A program made the translations under genes and the position numbers. From IMG/VR virus record IMGVR_UViG_3300043395_001200, positions 1 to 32,576 of that record: 32,576 nucleotides of DNA; one strand, 5' to 3'. A model generated the notes under the pieces. The model did not search any database and was not told the DNA's origin. It saw nothing but the letters and a program-made list of their open reading frames with translations. Positions 4,123-32,576 of this stretch are shown piece by piece. Origin of the DNA: a virus. Each line of letters begins with the position of its first letter. The first letter of the stretch is position 1.

Positions 4123-4797
4123 ATGACCGAACAAACATCGGCAACAAACACAGTGGATACTGATAACACTGAAACAAATACTCAGGCAACGAAAACTTTC
4201 ACGCAAGACGAGGTCAATGCGTTAATGGCTAGAACTAAATCTCAATTGGAGAAAAAGTATGCAAGCCGTTATGAAGACCTAGGCGATCCAGATGAACTTA
4301 AAGCGATTGTTCAACAACATCGTAAGCATCAGGAAGAACAACAACTCAAGCGTGGCGAGTTTGATAAAATCATTCAGGATTTAGCGTCCAAGAAGGATGC
4401 AGAGATACAGAAGAGAGATAAAATAATCGAAAGTTTCAAAGTCGAGACTCCTATTCTAGAAGCCGCAGCCAAGCATCGCGCTGTGAATCCAGAACAAGTC
4501 AAAGCATTGATTAGAAATGCTGTTAGACTTAACCAGGATGGCGAAGTAGAAGTACTTGATGAAAAGGGCGGTGTTCGCTACGATGACTCAGGTCGTCCAT
4601 TATCCGTTGATAGTTTTGTCCAGACATGGCTCCAAAGCAATCCACACTTTGTTTCAGCAACACCCAGCACTACAGCCAGCCGAAGTGCAGTAAGCAATGG
4701 CGCAACGAAACCACTTGATATTTCTAAACTCGATATGTCGAAACCTGAACACAGAAAAATCTATGCGGAACACAGAAAAGCCGCTGGATTAATTTAA
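4123..4797 (+). CDS. Capsid scaffolding protein (putative)
   Basis: Scaffolding proteins guide coat assembly and leave or are degraded before packaging. The 224-aa protein lies between portal and capsid, the standard place. It has a disordered Thr/Asn-rich N-terminus, a strongly charged helical or coiled-coil region at about residues 30-115 (many K, E and Q), and a short basic C-terminal helix (KPEHRKIYAEHRKAAG) of the type that contacts coat protein. A GAAGGCGAGG leader precedes ATG 4123. No protease motif is seen. The call is from context and architecture. Confidence 0.8.
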   Translation: MTEQTSATNTVDTDNTETNTQATKTFTQDEVNALMARTKSQLEKKYASRYEDLGDPDELKAIVQQHRKHQEEQQLKRGEFDKIIQDLASKKDAEIQKRDKIIESFKVETPILEAAAKHRAVNPEQVKALIRNAVRLNQDGEVEVLDEKGGVRYDDSGRPLSVDSFVQTWLQSNPHFVSATPSTTASRSAVSNGATKPLDISKLDMSKPEHRKIYAEHRKAAGLI

Positions 4798-23103: not shown

Positions 23104-23901
23104 ATGAGTAGAAATAGACGCAAGTGGGTAGGGAATCTTAAAACCCTACCCTTAGATCCGGACCTGGTGCTAAGTAGGTTGGTACAATGGACCAGAGATC
23201 CGCAACAGAGATTCAGCAGTTTGGATGGTCCTGAACCAGATAATCTTACCTGTGCCAGTGCATGGCAAGGTCAAGTACCTGAAGGTGCCATTGCTCGCGA
23301 AGCATTTATCTATCGAGACAAACATACTGACTTATGGATACAGGCAGTACCGTGGCGCATAGTCAATCAAAATGAAATGCCCAAATGGTGCGACATGCAA
23401 AGAGCCCTAGGTGCACAAGCAGTTTGGTATAACTATAATTCAAAACCACATCGACGTCGTAAGACCTATGCCGAACGTGAATTGATAAAAATACACAGCA
23501 ATGACATCACTTATGTAGATCTACTGCATGAATCTGGTAAACTTAAATTTGGCGATATAGATTTTACCAAATTAATACCACATGCACAGCCACGTAGTGT
23601 TGATATCGATATATTAAAATTGTTGGCACAGCAAAATCCCACAGGAAAAAGACGTTATCCAAAATTGGCTCCCGGAGAACGTCAACGACTTGCATATAAA
23701 CCAGTGCGAACTCCTTTAGGATTATTTGGCAGCGTTAATGCGGCCGCTGCCGCACATGGATTTAGTGCCAGTAAAATGAGTGTACTTATAAACAGAGATG
23801 ACGGTACAAATTATGAATTTATTGATAAAAACGATTACGCAAAACTGATTTTAAACGTAAATACCAATGAGCACAGAGAAGACTCTGAACTCGAAGAGTG
23901 A
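23104..23901 (+). CDS. Unknown 265-aa protein with NUMOD-like C-terminal motif
   Basis: No function is recognised. The protein is basic in its first half. Residues about 215-250 read PLGLFGSVNAAAAAHGFSAS followed by a short basic stretch and NYEF, similar to the NUMOD1-type helix-turn-helix repeats (TPxGxFxSxxxAAxaxG) found in homing endonucleases and other phage DNA-binding proteins. No nuclease motif (HNH or GIY-YIG) is visible. A TAAATA box at 23093 precedes the ATG and there is no clear ribosome site. It is the last gene before the structured intergenic region and could be a DNA- or RNA-binding regulator. Confidence 0.7.
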   Translation: MSRNRRKWVGNLKTLPLDPDLVLSRLVQWTRDPQQRFSSLDGPEPDNLTCASAWQGQVPEGAIAREAFIYRDKHTDLWIQAVPWRIVNQNEMPKWCDMQRALGAQAVWYNYNSKPHRRRKTYAERELIKIHSNDITYVDLLHESGKLKFGDIDFTKLIPHAQPRSVDIDILKLLAQQNPTGKRRYPKLAPGERQRLAYKPVRTPLGLFGSVNAAAAAHGFSASKMSVLINRDDGTNYEFIDKNDYAKLILNVNTNEHREDSELEE

Positions 23902-24003
23902 CACAATAGTGTAACTCGGACCTTTCTCTATATTTTCGAATATAGGATTATGGACTCAAATCTTCTTCGAATCCCCGTTAGACAACTAGTGGGGATTTTT
24001 TTA
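23901..24003 (+). ncRNA. Structured intergenic RNA 1 (candidate leader or small RNA)
   Basis: Between a coding stop and a terminator lie three hairpins: ACAC-AATA-GTGT (23901-23912), CTATATT-TTCG-AATATAG (23928-23945, a perfect stem with a UUCG tetraloop) and the terminator stem at 23970-23997. The sequence GGACTCAAA and, in the terminator loop, CGTTAGACA recur in a similar order in RNA 3 (27970-28022). It may be a processed 3' RNA or an independent small RNA. No tRNA fold fits. Confidence 0.4.
23970..24003 (+). terminator. Rho-independent terminator
   Basis: AATCCCC (23970-23976), 14-nt loop, GGGGATT (23991-23997), then a run of T. It ends the late transcript that carries the fibre and 265-aa genes. 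Confidence 0.85.
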
Positions 24004-24008
24004 TGAAG

Positions 24009-24143
24009 CGTTAAATTAAATATTAACGACAACAAGATGTTGTCAAAAAAGCGACTTTAGAGGTCTTTCCCTGCAAGTTTGGGCTTCTGGAGTTTTTCTC
24101 GTATGTTGGAACCCCTGAGTAGCAATACTTGGGGGTTTTCTTT
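24009..24143 (+). ncRNA. Structured intergenic RNA 2 (candidate)
   Basis: No coding frame is evident. It opens with CGTTAA/TTAACG (24009-24028), then GACAAC-AAGAT-GTTGTC (24028-24044), a 65-nt segment with short pairing, and closes with its own terminator. A TAAATA box lies inside the first hairpin loop (24017). Being flanked by two terminators, it would be a separate short transcript if transcribed. With RNA 1 and the promoter region this accounts for the 23902-24283 gap. Confidence 0.4.
24110..24143 (+). terminator. Strong rho-independent terminator
   Basis: AACCCCTGAGT (24110-24120), loop AGCAAT, ACTTGGGGGTT (24127-24137) pair over 11 positions including two G-T wobbles, followed by TTCTTTTTT. 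Confidence 0.9.
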
Positions 24144-24205
24144 TTTGTCAATTTAATTGAATTTTGGTGTTGCTAAAAAACGACAAACAAATTTAATGGC
24201 CAAAA

Positions 24206-27347: not shown

Positions 27348-27586
27348 TGACTGACATTGTGACTACAAGTAAAGGTATTCAAGAAAACGGTAACGCCTGT
27401 GCTTCGGTGGGTATGACTATAATTATATTTGCCGGCTTGAAGATTTGGATATTTGGTGCTGGCATTTGGTCCATACTTTTAATCGTGGCTGGATTATTTT
27501 TCATGTATAAAGGTATTACACATGCCAATGTCGGTTATCAAGCAGAACTTGATGCTGTTAATAGTGTCAAGGAGAAGTCTCGATGA
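27347..27586 (+). CDS. Two-TM membrane protein, 79 aa
   Basis: ATG 27347 shares its A with the previous stop; a GTG at 27329 is rejected. Hydrophobic segments at about residues 21-36 and 38-54 form a helical hairpin with short polar ends and a charged C-terminus (AVNSVKEKSR). The topology fits a class II holin, but equally a superinfection-exclusion membrane protein. Location in the early chain directly before a lipoprotein favours the second. Its stop overlaps the next ATG as ATGA. Confidence 0.75.
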   Translation: MTDIVTTSKGIQENGNACASVGMTIIIFAGLKIWIFGAGIWSILLIVAGLFFMYKGITHANVGYQAELDAVNSVKEKSR

Positions 27587-27867
27587 AAGTATTATTTGGT
27601 CTTGGTCTAGTACTGACACTATCTGGTTGTGCCAGCAACTGCACTCATGCCTGTGTGTTTGGATTTGGTCCCGGCAATCCCATATTCAACCAAATGGCGG
27701 ATTCAGCGGATCGAGATGATCAATGCCAAACCAGAACACATAGCACACTTACTGGTGAACGCTTAAAACCAGACGGACATCAAGCGCCGGATTATTGCAA
27801 GTACCGCGGTCGCAAAGGTGCTACAATCACCGATAGGTCGGGACATACTGTTGGTTATATTCGTTGA
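27583..27867 (+). CDS. Small lipoprotein, 94 aa
   Basis: The signal peptide and lipobox are clear: MKVLFGLGLVLTLSGC, with cleavage before Cys16. Mature part has several further cysteines (NCTHAC, DQCQT, DYCKYRG) and a basic C-terminus. An AAGGAGAAG ribosome site lies upstream. It should be lipid-anchored in the host envelope, implying a diderm host. Candidate roles are superinfection exclusion by receptor masking or an outer-membrane spanin; the early location and lack of a spanin-like Pro-rich body favour exclusion. Confidence 0.8.
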   Translation: MKVLFGLGLVLTLSGCASNCTHACVFGFGPGNPIFNQMADSADRDDQCQTRTHSTLTGERLKPDGHQAPDYCKYRGRKGATITDRSGHTVGYIR

Positions 27868-27917
27868 TTTTTTCTCTTTAATCAAAGGTTTTTGTGAAGT
27901 CTTAGATAAATAAATTT
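27868..27917 (+). other. Spacer after the lipoprotein gene
   Basis: An AT-rich leader with a GATTTTTTCTCTTTAATC imperfect hairpin and a TAAATA box (27907-27912) just before the structured RNA. Whether the box starts that RNA cannot be decided by eye. Confidence 0.3.
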
Positions 27918-28029
27918 AACAACGATGCAATGTTGTTGTTAGCAGATGTGCAAGTCCAATTTGGTCATTGGACTCTAAGCCATAAGTGTTATATATATCC
28001 TGTGTTGTTTATCCGTTAGACACATCTGC
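27918..28029 (+). ncRNA. Structured intergenic RNA 3 (candidate small RNA)
   Basis: The segment has AACAAC/GTTGTT (27918-27937), then a closing stem GCAGATGTG (27942-27950) with CACATCTGC (28021-28029), 9 bp perfect. That stem encloses AGTCCAAT-TTGGTC-ATTGGACT (27953-27974, 8 bp perfect) and a looser AT-rich arm. A strong terminator follows directly. This nested multi-stem architecture is not explained by protein coding. It does not fold as a canonical tRNA: no T-loop or anticodon arm fits. It may be a regulatory RNA or an RNA decoy. Confidence 0.6.
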
Positions 28030-28030
28030 G

Positions 28031-28075
28031 AGAAAGCCCGGTTTTGTAAGGCATTATCCGGGCTTTCTTTTTGGC
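28031..28075 (+). terminator. Strong rho-independent terminator
   Basis: AGAAAGCCCGG (28031-28041) pairs perfectly with CCGGGCTTTCT (28058-28068) over 11 bp, loop 16 nt, followed by a T run. It closes structured RNA 3. Confidence 0.93.
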
Positions 28076-28116
28076 TAAATTTTACCATTATAGTTGCAGA
28101 TAATTTCTAGAACTGC

Positions 28117-28122
28117 TATACT
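28117..28122 (+). promoter_or_regulatory. Extended -10 promoter (TGC-TATACT)
   Basis: TATACT preceded by TGC, the extended -10 form, with a weak -35 (TTGCAG at 17 bp). A TAAATA overlaps at 28122-28127. It precedes the AAGGACC ribosome site of the gene at 28149, which needs a promoter after the terminator. Confidence 0.6.
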
Positions 28123-28148
28123 AAATACTTTACAACATAAGGACCACT

Positions 28149-28565
28149 ATGGAAAAAATTTACTATAAAAACAAGCCCAATCCCAATACCAGGGATACAC
28201 TGAGAGAAATCAGTGATGCTGACTATCATTGGCTACGCACAATGATGAAGGGCTATGCAGACCTACAGGACTGTGCAGATGTTAACCCTGCTTATCGCCA
28301 ATGGTTTAACATGCCCAATACCAAATTACCAGTACAGCCCCTAAAGCGTATGGAACGCAATAGCCCTGCTACATGGTCGGAGGGCATAATTAAAAAGATT
28401 GACCAAGGTCGCGGACGCAGAGACCTCAGTCCCACTCACTGCGATGGCATTGAACAGTTGACCGAACTGATGGCTGGCATATATGACGTGCCCGCAGTTA
28501 AGTTTGTGGAAAAGACTACACCTAATCCTCGTCCAAAAACTTTTAATAAAATATTTGGAGGTTGA
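28149..28565 (+). CDS. Hypothetical protein, 138 aa
   Basis: ATG 28149 follows AAGGACCACT. The protein is basic, with a helical N-terminal half (DADYHWLRTMMKGYADLQD) and a Pro/Arg-rich C-terminus. A stretch NSPATWSEGIIKKIDQGRG is charged and possibly nucleic-acid-binding. No family is recognised. It forms a two-gene unit with the next gene and has its own promoter. Confidence 0.75.
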   Translation: MEKIYYKNKPNPNTRDTLREISDADYHWLRTMMKGYADLQDCADVNPAYRQWFNMPNTKLPVQPLKRMERNSPATWSEGIIKKIDQGRGRRDLSPTHCDGIEQLTELMAGIYDVPAVKFVEKTTPNPRPKTFNKIFGG

Positions 28566-29371: not shown

Positions 29372-29692
29372 ATGCAGTTACCACAACAGATAGAATTCAT
29401 GAGCCAAAAATGGTCTATCAGAACAGCACTACACAGAGAACTGGAAGATTGTGTGGGTCAATGCGATCCCAAGACAAATACCATAATCATAGAAAAAAAC
29501 ATGCCCAGTGACGTCATGACTCAGACATTAATGCATGAACTGACACATGTTATTGAAATGACACTACAGTTAAATCTCACAGAACAACAGGTTGACTGTT
29601 TAGCCACTGGATGGTTACATTTATTGCGTACTAATCCACATGTGGTAAAATTAATCACAGCAAAGGAATCAAAAGATGAGATTCGGACATGA
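29372..29692 (+). CDS. Small HExxH metallopeptidase-like protein
   Basis: The 106-aa protein has the zinc-binding motif HELTH at residues 55-59 in an M-H-E-L-T-H-V-I-E helix, followed by a second helix (EQQVDCLATGWLHLLR) that could supply the third ligand (E71 or nearby). This compact layout resembles small phage HExxH proteins related to the ImmA/IrrE or SprT-like groups. It is the first gene of the packaging operon, behind AAAGGACTAGAG. It may process a capsid or host protein; an endopeptidase role in lysis cannot be ruled out. It overlaps the next gene by 17 nt. Confidence 0.7.
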   Translation: MQLPQQIEFMSQKWSIRTALHRELEDCVGQCDPKTNTIIIEKNMPSDVMTQTLMHELTHVIEMTLQLNLTEQQVDCLATGWLHLLRTNPHVVKLITAKESKDEIRT

Positions 29693-30211: not shown

Positions 30212-30474
30212 TGGTTAGACCCAAAGCACCAGTACTACTACAACAAGCAGATGATATCGGTGACATCGAAATCATGATGGCGCCAGCAGTATGGATAGTC
30301 ATGTATCAAAATACCGCTATCAGCATGGCACGTAGAACATGGACGGTGCGTGGCCAAGTGGTCAAATACATGAGAACAAATTTTAGCAATCCTGCACACG
30401 CATATAGATTGGCCGCAAAGTTGAACAAGATGTTTGACACAGATGATTTTACAGTTAGGGAAATAAATATATGA
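30211..30474 (+). CDS. Hypothetical protein, 87 aa (complete copy)
   Basis: This is the full-length form of the gene cut at the window start. ATG 30211 shares its A with the previous stop. The N-terminus is short and polar (MVRPKAPVLLQQADDIGDI), followed by a hydrophobic patch and a basic helical half. No function is recognised. From base 30224 onward it lies in the terminal repeat. Confidence 0.75.
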   Translation: MVRPKAPVLLQQADDIGDIEIMMAPAVWIVMYQNTAISMARRTWTVRGQVVKYMRTNFSNPAHAYRLAAKLNKMFDTDDFTVREINI

Positions 30475-30707
30475 GACAAGGACAAATACACGTTTATGGT
30501 GGCTATAAATCACCAGAAGAAGGCGCAAGAACTATTACGCCTATTATTCAAAATGAAGCCTACGGACTTTATGTGCGTAGAACTTACATTCGAGGACAAT
30601 GGCACATAGAACTTATTCGTAAGATGCCAGAATACAGTGAACCATTGATTACAGAGTTCTTTTTATCGCCGGATGAACTACAACTACTAAGGGAGAGTCT
30701 ACGATGA
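30471..30707 (+). CDS. Hypothetical protein, 78 aa (right copy)
   Basis: Identical to 248-484 in sequence and in its ATGA overlaps on both sides. It is the same gene of the unit genome, present twice only because of the terminal overlap. Confidence 0.7.
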   Translation: MRQGQIHVYGGYKSPEEGARTITPIIQNEAYGLYVRRTYIRGQWHIELIRKMPEYSEPLITEFFLSPDELQLLRESLR

Positions 30708-30850
30708 AATTACCGGAAACAGTAGCAACAGAACAAGAACTCATGAAACAGCGAGTTCGTTTTCTAGTATTAGTAAATGGCTATCTATCAGCAGGCGCAT
30801 GGATTGCCATAGCCTATGCTGGATATCGCCTAGTGGGATTATTTGCATAA
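30704..30850 (+). CDS. Small single-span membrane protein, 48 aa (right copy)
   Basis: Identical to 481-627. It sits directly before terS, with TAATG overlap. The hydrophobic C-terminal half is unchanged. Confidence 0.65.
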   Translation: MKLPETVATEQELMKQRVRFLVLVNGYLSAGAWIAIAYAGYRLVGLFA

Positions 30851-31269
30851 TGGCAGTTAAAGAAGGTACAAAAATAGTCCATGGATTGATTGTGGGACGC
30901 AATCAAGTTGTAGTGCCACCTGAAGAAGTAGAAGATTTAGCCAGTCTAGGCTGCACTAATACTGACATAGCCAATTGGTTTGGTATCGATGACAGCACAC
31001 TAACATACAATTTTAAGCAGGAACTGATAAAAGGTCGTGAAAACTTAAAGATATCATTACGCAGAGCCATGCTGAAAAATGCCTGTGTAAACTTAAATGC
31101 CGCAGTACAGATCTTCTTAGCGAAAAATATGCTGGGCATGAGCGATAATGGTATGAATACAGACAACAGTAAGGTTCTACCTTTTACCGACAATGATGAT
31201 GATCAAGTATCAGAAGCAGATCTAGATGAAATGCGAGAAGAACTAGCAAATCTAGATGGCACTGAGTAA
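30850..31269 (+). CDS. terS: Terminase small subunit (right copy)
   Basis: Identical in protein and, by my reading, in DNA to 627-1046. It overlaps the second terL copy by 14 nt, as in the left copy. Confidence 0.75.
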   Translation: MAVKEGTKIVHGLIVGRNQVVVPPEEVEDLASLGCTNTDIANWFGIDDSTLTYNFKQELIKGRENLKISLRRAMLKNACVNLNAAVQIFLAKNMLGMSDNGMNTDNSKVLPFTDNDDDQVSEADLDEMREELANLDGTE

Positions 31270-32488
31270 AGCACAACGCATGATAGCAGATGCGCCCTTT
31301 AGATTCAGGGTTGCATGTTGTGGACGACGCTTCGGTAAGACACATCTAGCCATGCGAGAAATCGCTAAATTTGCCAGTAAGCCAGATCAACGTGTTATCT
31401 ACGTTGCACCTACCTATAGAATGGCTAAGAATATTCTATGGAAGAAACTTAAGAAGAAACTTACTTCAATCAATTGGGTGCGTAAAGTCAATGAAACTGA
31501 ACTGACACTGGAATTAGTCAACGGCAGTGAAATACAACTCAAAGGAGCAGAAAACTTTGATGCACTTAGAGGAACAGGCAATAATTTTATTGTCTTAGAT
31601 GAAGTTGCAGACATGCACAGTGAAGCATGGTATGAAGTACTGCGTCCTACTCTTAGTGATACAGGTGGACATGCACTATTCCTAGGCACACCCAAAGGCA
31701 TGAATTGGTTCAAAGATTTGTTTGACAATGCCTTAACTAAAAAGAACTGGGTCAGTTTCCAGTTTACCACAATCGATGGAGGCAACGTTCCTGCAGAAGA
31801 AGTAGAACAAGCACGACAGGATCTAGATGCAAGAACGTTCCGTCAAGAGTTCATGGCTACCTTTGAAAACTTCTCGGGTATTATTGCTTATGCATTTGGA
31901 CAGCATAACATCAAAACAGCAGACGCAGTTCAAGCCACAGAACCCTTAATTCTGGGCATGGACTTTAACGTAAATCCAATGTCATGTGCTATATTGAGAA
32001 AAACACCACAAGGACTGCACCAAATAGATGAGATTGTCTTACCCAGCAGTAATACCAATGAACTTATTGAAGAAATACGCAATCGCTATCCTAGTAATCC
32101 TATTAGTTGTTATCCTGACCCTGCTGGTGTCCAGCGTAAGACAAGTGCCAATGGAAATACGGATATTCGACTGCTTGAGCAAGCCGGATTTACCGTGCGT
32201 TATCATAGACAGCACGCCCAAGTCAAAGACAGAATAAATGCCGCAAACAGTTTATTTTATCTGCGTGATGATGATAGCACTCGTTTTTACATTGATCCTC
32301 GTTGTAAACATACTATTAAAAGTCTTCAGCAGTTTTGTTATAAAGAAAATACACAAATACCTGACAAGGATTCGGGACTGGATCACATGTGGGATGCGTT
32401 AACTTATCCTATAGAATTCTTATTCCCAATACAGAAAATACATGAGCCCAGAGCGCCGCAGAGATTCGGTCATGCTTTGGCTGCATAA
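31256..32488 (+). CDS. terL: Terminase large subunit, second allele (right copy)
   Basis: Same 410-aa protein as at 1033-2265 except V47 for I and D340 for S. I count 32 nucleotide differences from 31333 to 32455 and none in the flanking repeat. All Walker, coupling and nuclease residues are retained. Nearly all changes are silent, so this is a natural allele under purifying selection and not sequencing error. Confidence 0.97.
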   Translation: MALSKAQRMIADAPFRFRVACCGRRFGKTHLAMREIAKFASKPDQRVIYVAPTYRMAKNILWKKLKKKLTSINWVRKVNETELTLELVNGSEIQLKGAENFDALRGTGNNFIVLDEVADMHSEAWYEVLRPTLSDTGGHALFLGTPKGMNWFKDLFDNALTKKNWVSFQFTTIDGGNVPAEEVEQARQDLDARTFRQEFMATFENFSGIIAYAFGQHNIKTADAVQATEPLILGMDFNVNPMSCAILRKTPQGLHQIDEIVLPSSNTNELIEEIRNRYPSNPISCYPDPAGVQRKTSANGNTDIRLLEQAGFTVRYHRQHAQVKDRINAANSLFYLRDDDSTRFYIDPRCKHTIKSLQQFCYKENTQIPDKDSGLDHMWDALTYPIEFLFPIQKIHEPRAPQRFGHALAA

Positions 32489-32515
32489 ATATACAATAGA
32501 TCGGAGCCTCAATAC

Positions 32516-32576
32516 ATGGCAGAATTTACCCTACAGCAGGCTTATCAAAGAGCCATTGCAACAAATCAATTATACA
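32516..32576 (+). CDS. Portal protein, N-terminal fragment (cut by window end)
   Basis: The first 20 codons of the portal gene, identical to 2293-2353, truncated by the end of the window. The upstream TAAATA box and GGAG ribosome site are also repeated. Confidence 0.9.
   Translation, partial: MAEFTLQQAYQRAIATNQLY

Follow-up and report, generated by a model that had tools for sequence, protein, structure and literature searches.

Introduction

The closest described counterparts of the element examined in this study are small RNAs (sRNAs) encoded by phages. OOP RNA of phage lambda and sar RNA of phage P22 are short antisense RNAs that pair with phage mRNA and block its expression, while PreS (lambda), VpdS (VP882), and 24B_1 are stand-alone sRNAs that reach their mRNA targets in trans (PMC12197685). 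Hfq is bound by PreS and VpdS, whose action is directed at least in part to host mRNAs, and the sRNAs covered by the review of this field originate mostly from phages of cultured hosts (PMC12197685).

The element lies in a 32,576-nt stretch of viral DNA (IMG/VR record IMGVR_UViG_3300043395_001200), referred to here in its full length as the window. With moderate confidence, we interpret it as a stand-alone phage sRNA of ~155 nt that blocks translation of the neighbouring gene 28149 through pairing in trans between a strip of the RNA and the leader of that gene. As a short phage RNA proposed from its sequence to block a phage mRNA by pairing, it would resemble OOP and sar; however, the window RNA is encoded on the + strand like 28149, does not overlap that gene, and shows complementarity that is short and often bipartite. 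An antisense phage RNA of the OOP/sar type was rejected on these grounds of strand and position. Compared to PreS and VpdS, the window RNA is predicted to target leaders of the phage itself, the first being that of the gene next to it. The RNA would thus be of a kind already known, a base-pairing phage sRNA, and its novelty would lie in the lack of an Rfam family, in not being encoded antisense to its target, and in a locus that appears to stay fixed while sequence and target change together.

Genomic context and predicted structure

The window represents a ~30.2-kb siphovirus-type phage genome, the sequence running slightly beyond its own start, in which genes for terminase, portal, scaffold, capsid, tape measure, and tail fibre were recognised. 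Positions 1-2353 and 30224-32576 form a direct terminal repeat (2353 bp, 32 mismatches), which may represent either a circular genome, sequenced beyond its starting point and with strain variation, or a chimeric closure. A small protein with a match to the putative metallopeptidase DUF6782 is encoded at 29372-29692, in a stretch upstream of the terminase that is among the better conserved ones. The element itself sits between a 94-aa gene (27583-27867), the last of the lysis/late side and encoding a protein with a lipoprotein-like start, and 28149, the first gene of the next operon. The initial annotation had placed it in a phage early region, a description that can be refined: late/lysis-type genes end on one side of it, and the promoter of the next operon lies on the other. 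Annotated phage DNA resembling the element region was not found, and a replication origin at the element was rejected, as GC skew has no turning point at 28 kb.

Every helix reported in the initial annotation is present in the sequence (Table 1), as is the separate terminator that it had described. The AACAAC/GTTGTT hairpin also exists, but its stem comprises 10 bp rather than the reported 6. The view that neither an open frame nor a tRNA fold accounts for the element likewise held, with all open reading frames there at or below 37 aa and 0 tRNA or tmRNA genes detected by ARAGORN. Within the domain closed by the outer stem P1, the predicted fold of the window RNA leaves a long strip exposed. 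A riboswitch or attenuator was not indicated, since in the predicted folds no strand is common to the terminator and the other stems, and a separate promoter follows the terminator.

Table 1. Positions of the RNA element and neighbouring features in the window.
Feature	Position	Strand	Sequence	Basis or remark
ATAAATA promoter-like box, putative -10 element of the RNA gene	27906..27912	+	ATAAATA	Putative promoter function, from strand bias and position
5' hairpin, 10 bp	27917..27941	+	TAACAACGAT (27917-27926), loop GCAAT, GCAAU in RNA (27927-27931), GTTGTTGTTA (27932-27941)	Fold; compensation in L010
Domain closed by 9-bp outer stem P1	27942..28029	+	GCAGATGTG (27942-27950) with CACATCTGC (28021-28029)	
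Inner 8-bp hairpin	27953..27974	+	AGTCCAAT (27953-27960) with ATTGGACT (27967-27974)	Sequence and fold
Proposed target-pairing strip	27998..28008	+	UCCUGUGUUGU	Complementary to 28132-28143 and to the ribosome-binding site of 26160; p 0.07 alone
Intrinsic terminator, 11-bp stem and T tail	28031..28073	+	AGAAAGCCCGG (28031-28041) with CCGGGCTTTCT (28058-28068), then T's	
Promoter of next operon, overlapping a TAAATA box (28122-28127)	28094..28127	+	TTGCAG-17-TATACT	Sequence; TATAAT and TAAATA aligned in relatives
Proposed target, leader and Shine-Dalgarno of gene 28149	28132..28143	+	ACAACAUAAGGA	Second of 38 ribosome-binding sites for the strip
138-aa gene, function unassigned, proposed target	28149..28565	+		Open reading frame; 47% identical to the gene behind the L107 RNA

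The 158-nt segment 27915-28072 folds with -55.9 kcal/mol compared to -33.3 +/- 4.0 for shuffled sequences (z -5.7; 0 of 200 shuffles as good), and the wider span 27890-28090 yields a z of -5.2. When one strand of the genome was scanned in sliding segments of 150 nt, segments with a stronger z than the element were found, the best at 23856. Because other parts of the genome also have low values, z alone would not single out the element, whereas comparison with relatives does.

Promoter-like boxes

In the window and its close relatives, 92 copies of ATAAATA lie on the gene strand and only 3 on the opposite one, mostly in intergenic sequence and often ~25-32 nt before start codons, as upstream of the portal gene. 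The boxes in the window are located at 240, 2262, 4055, 27906, and 29343, with others in the relatives, and TAAATA boxes also lie upstream of packaging and capsid genes. In all relatives, a TAAATA box stands 3-6 nt ahead of the first stem of the RNA, whatever gene lies upstream. From this placement we infer that the TAAATA box would act as the promoter of the RNA, which would begin at its first stem. We take ATAAATA to resemble the -10 word of T4-type late promoters (TATAAATA), and the position of the boxes before packaging and capsid genes is a second likeness to these promoters. The present system differs from T4 in its ~30-kb siphovirus-type genome and in that no gp55-like or otherwise recognised late sigma factor was found among the proteins scanned. 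With TAAATA boxes also found ahead of packaging and capsid genes, late accumulation of the RNA would be expected.

Structured RNAs at the same locus in related phages

Close relatives were retrieved by means of the terminase, yielding 27 at 75-88% identity, and L010 (80% identity) is the sole relative with the architecture seen in the window. Its homologue of the element (4249-4388; nhmmer E 1.3e-4) has a predicted fold nearly superimposable on that of the window RNA, with a 10-bp hairpin that again has a GCAAU loop, P1 stacked directly onto it, an inner hairpin with a 6-nt loop, an exposed strip, and a terminator. The 5' hairpin is kept with compensating changes. P1 reads CUGGUCCA/UGGACCAG in L010 versus GCAGAUGUG/CACAUCUGC in the window, such that seven of the eight comparable pairs are changed on both sides and none is broken; an anchored stem such as the L010 P1 arose twice in 200,000 shuffles. 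At the level of sequence comparison, this compensatory replacement shows the outer stem to be real, and the uncompensated changes in paired bases for which the initial annotation had suggested a search were absent from it. The 8-bp inner stem is weaker, with a 4-bp counterpart in L010. A scan for the AACAAC..GCAAT..GTTGTT hairpin produced 11 matches, with box, stem, and terminator together in L010 only; the exact pattern of 9-bp and 8-bp stems was not found in IMG/VR; and relatives sought through the proteins of 28149 and 27583 amounted to one spurious match and none, respectively.

At the same genomic place, thirteen further relatives have a core of another kind, here termed type A. The type A RNA has an invariant UAUUUGCC(A/C)AAGU, often a GCAAN hairpin, and a terminator, and its P1 also shows changes on both sides among relatives. 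A covariance model of the type A core (R1) was constructed from ten sequences; it detects L107, L144, and L125 with significance, and L006 only weakly. In the window, R1 scored at most 4.4 bits across 27850-28150 with filters off; only the place and flanks are common, and because R1 gives no match, the window RNA was not filed as type A. A scan of genome contigs for the type A core returned five matches, none of which has the structure. Further architectures lie upstream of the same kind of promoter in L027 and the more distant L031. The aligned loci have a common 3' boundary, a TTTTGGCTxAATT tail followed by a TATAAT-type promoter fused to a TAAATA box, and the terminator occupies the same place in relatives, with the same loop AAGGCATT and tail. 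Searches of Rfam returned 0 matches above the gathering threshold in the window and 0 in seven relatives, and a relaxed cut-off gave weak matches at chance level.

Several of these RNAs have the GCAAU/GCAAN hairpin, at differing positions. Such recurrence would fit an RNA whose main role is to bind a phage or host protein through this hairpin, or one whose strip is directed at host mRNAs; we consider either role very unlikely, as the match of these RNAs to their own leaders would then need a separate explanation.

Additional structured stretches were observed elsewhere in these genomes. A second structured RNA follows a TAAATA box in L003 (2237-2430) and L096 (2252-2430), with a GCAAU hairpin, a conserved inner core, and a long outer stem that is wholly replaced between both phages (z -5.7 and -7.0); the L003 copy has no Rfam match. 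In the window, the non-coding stretch 23900-24145 (z about -5 to -6) combines a TAAATA box with a GACAAC/GTTGTC hairpin and stems resembling a terminator, and has no clear homologue among the relatives' loci examined.

Complementarity to the leader of the next gene

In nearly all relatives, the outer stem encloses a strip whose sequence is complementary to the following gene's leader or ribosome-binding site. Among type A phages, UAUUUGCC meets GGCAAAUA in 10 of the 13 next-gene leaders, with perfect runs of 14 bp in L145, 12 bp in L191 and L026, 11 bp in L018 and L107, and 9-10 bp in the rest, and a G.U version of the match in L006; the seed is ~40% unpaired in predicted folds, i.e., partly paired. 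The motif is absent from this leader in L003 and L096, where a segment ACAUAUAUUCCUUUA covers UAAAGGA(G)AUAUAUGU, the Shine-Dalgarno sequence plus AUG. In L010, UCCUUUUGU pairs with ACAAAAGGA (9 bp) and UGCCCC with GGGGCA (6 bp); for its exposed strip, the phage's own leader is the best of 2158 segments in the contig, and p is 0.06-0.14 when all inner sequence is included. L027 has an 11-bp match, a run length reached by 0 of 2467 segments, and 15 of 16 nt are complementary in L031. When pairing energies were permuted over seven loci, the true assignment of RNAs to leaders was the best of 5040, and it was the best of 120 for the five loci left after omission of L018 and L145; in these comparisons, strips and leader limits were picked by eye and duplex energies ignore competing structure. 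Taking one locus per architecture, Fisher's p is 3e-9, for loci that are metagenomic sequences, many of them related to one another.

In the window, UCCUGUGUUGU and ACAACAUAAGGA form 11 bp with one G.U and one bulge, including 6 nt of unbroken Watson-Crick pairing. Of 38 starts, the ribosome-binding site of 28149 ranks second for this strip and that of 26160 first. Taken alone, the pairing is not significant (p ~0.07) and is the weakest of the set, and 436 of 1448 random segments match as well when the whole inner region of the window RNA is used. Across the group, strip-leader complementarity is thus shown, whereas the window's own is weak. With regard to the usual marks of a trans-acting sRNA, the window has an intrinsic terminator with a U tail, a TAAATA box that is correctly placed and strand-specific as a putative promoter, and a seed match that is weak (p 0.07) compared to those in relatives.

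The weakness of the window's own match would be expected if the element were only a structured 3' end and terminator, its stems stabilising the 3' end of the late transcript and insulating the next operon with no base-pairing regulator involved; the position at the end of the late gene block and the strong terminator before a new promoter in all relatives agree with this. Nevertheless, we regard such an insulator as unlikely, as a promoter-like box lies at a fixed 3-6 nt before the first stem, independent of the upstream gene, and insulation needs neither an invariant core of unpaired type in 13 relatives nor a match to each phage's own leader. A general anti-Shine-Dalgarno reading (UCCU in all) also lost weight, as enrichment over shuffles is clear in some members only and own-leader matching explains more.

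The complementarity extends beyond the adjacent gene. In type A phages, 18.3 kb of intergenic sequence contain 14 copies of GGCAAATA compared to 0-1 for permuted words. In L107, L144, L026, and L111, the motif lies 7-12 nt upstream of the start codons of distant genes (HNH endonuclease, AAA ATPase, and genes of unknown function), which are candidate trans targets. These distant sites favour trans action over pairing after read-through, and control of translation over a DNA operator. Pairing in cis supposes that, once late transcription has read through the terminator, the strip folds onto the leader within one transcript and hides the ribosome-binding site, such that translation of early genes would depend on transcripts from their own promoter. 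Strip and target do lie on the same strand about 130-160 nt apart, and the same complementarity fits equally well; however, a strong terminator separates the two, a discrete box starts the RNA, and the GGCAAATA sites include those 1.6-2.5 kb away, making this arrangement rather improbable. We give still less weight to a DNA element in which the near-palindromes TTTGCCAAA and TTTGGCAAA serve as operator sites for a repressor looping across the early promoter, a reading that we judge extremely unlikely. Although the leader site of L107 is a full palindrome (GTATTTGGCAAATAC), other phages keep only the half complementary to the RNA (AGAAGGCAAATAAC, ACAGGCAAATAAGG), strip-leader spacing varies from 128 to 161 nt, and stems change with compensation. 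Moreover, such a palindrome is lacking in L010, L027, L031, and the window, and yet L010, L027, and L031 show good complementarity.

Proposed mechanism and implications

Under the preferred interpretation as a trans-acting sRNA, the RNA would start just after the phage-specific TAAATA promoter-like box, end at its own intrinsic terminator, and fold into the GCAAU-loop hairpin, the P1-closed domain, and the terminator, with the domain presenting the strip. The strip would act in trans, pairing with the Shine-Dalgarno sequence and leader of 28149, and probably with those of 26160 as well, and pairing would block ribosome access. As the positions of the TAAATA boxes suggest, the RNA may accumulate late and shut down early genes. 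Over evolutionary time, the locus would be kept, with core and pairing strip rewritten together with the target leader. The 28149 protein is 47% identical to the protein behind the L107 RNA, and therefore the same target gene would be served by two unrelated RNA-leader pairs.

Three possibilities had been raised in the initial annotation, namely a regulatory RNA, a decoy, and an undescribed structured class. Of these, the first is favoured by a terminated RNA gene at the same place, compensation in P1, and leader complementarity across relatives, while the decoy found no support. Regarding a class, we tentatively suggest, with less than even confidence, that a group of siphovirus-type phages holds a fixed slot for an sRNA whose structure and strip are rewritten with the neighbouring leader, forming an undescribed class of early-to-late translational switch that is driven from phage-specific TAAATA promoters and has extra targets in trans. 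To our knowledge, few sRNAs of strictly environmental phages are known, and metatranscriptomes offer a direct place to look for the RNA families identified here. If the proposed interpretation is true, it would provide a simple RNA account of early-gene silencing, and an sRNA gene that is kept in place as its core and target site change together would constitute a natural series of matched RNA-target pairs.
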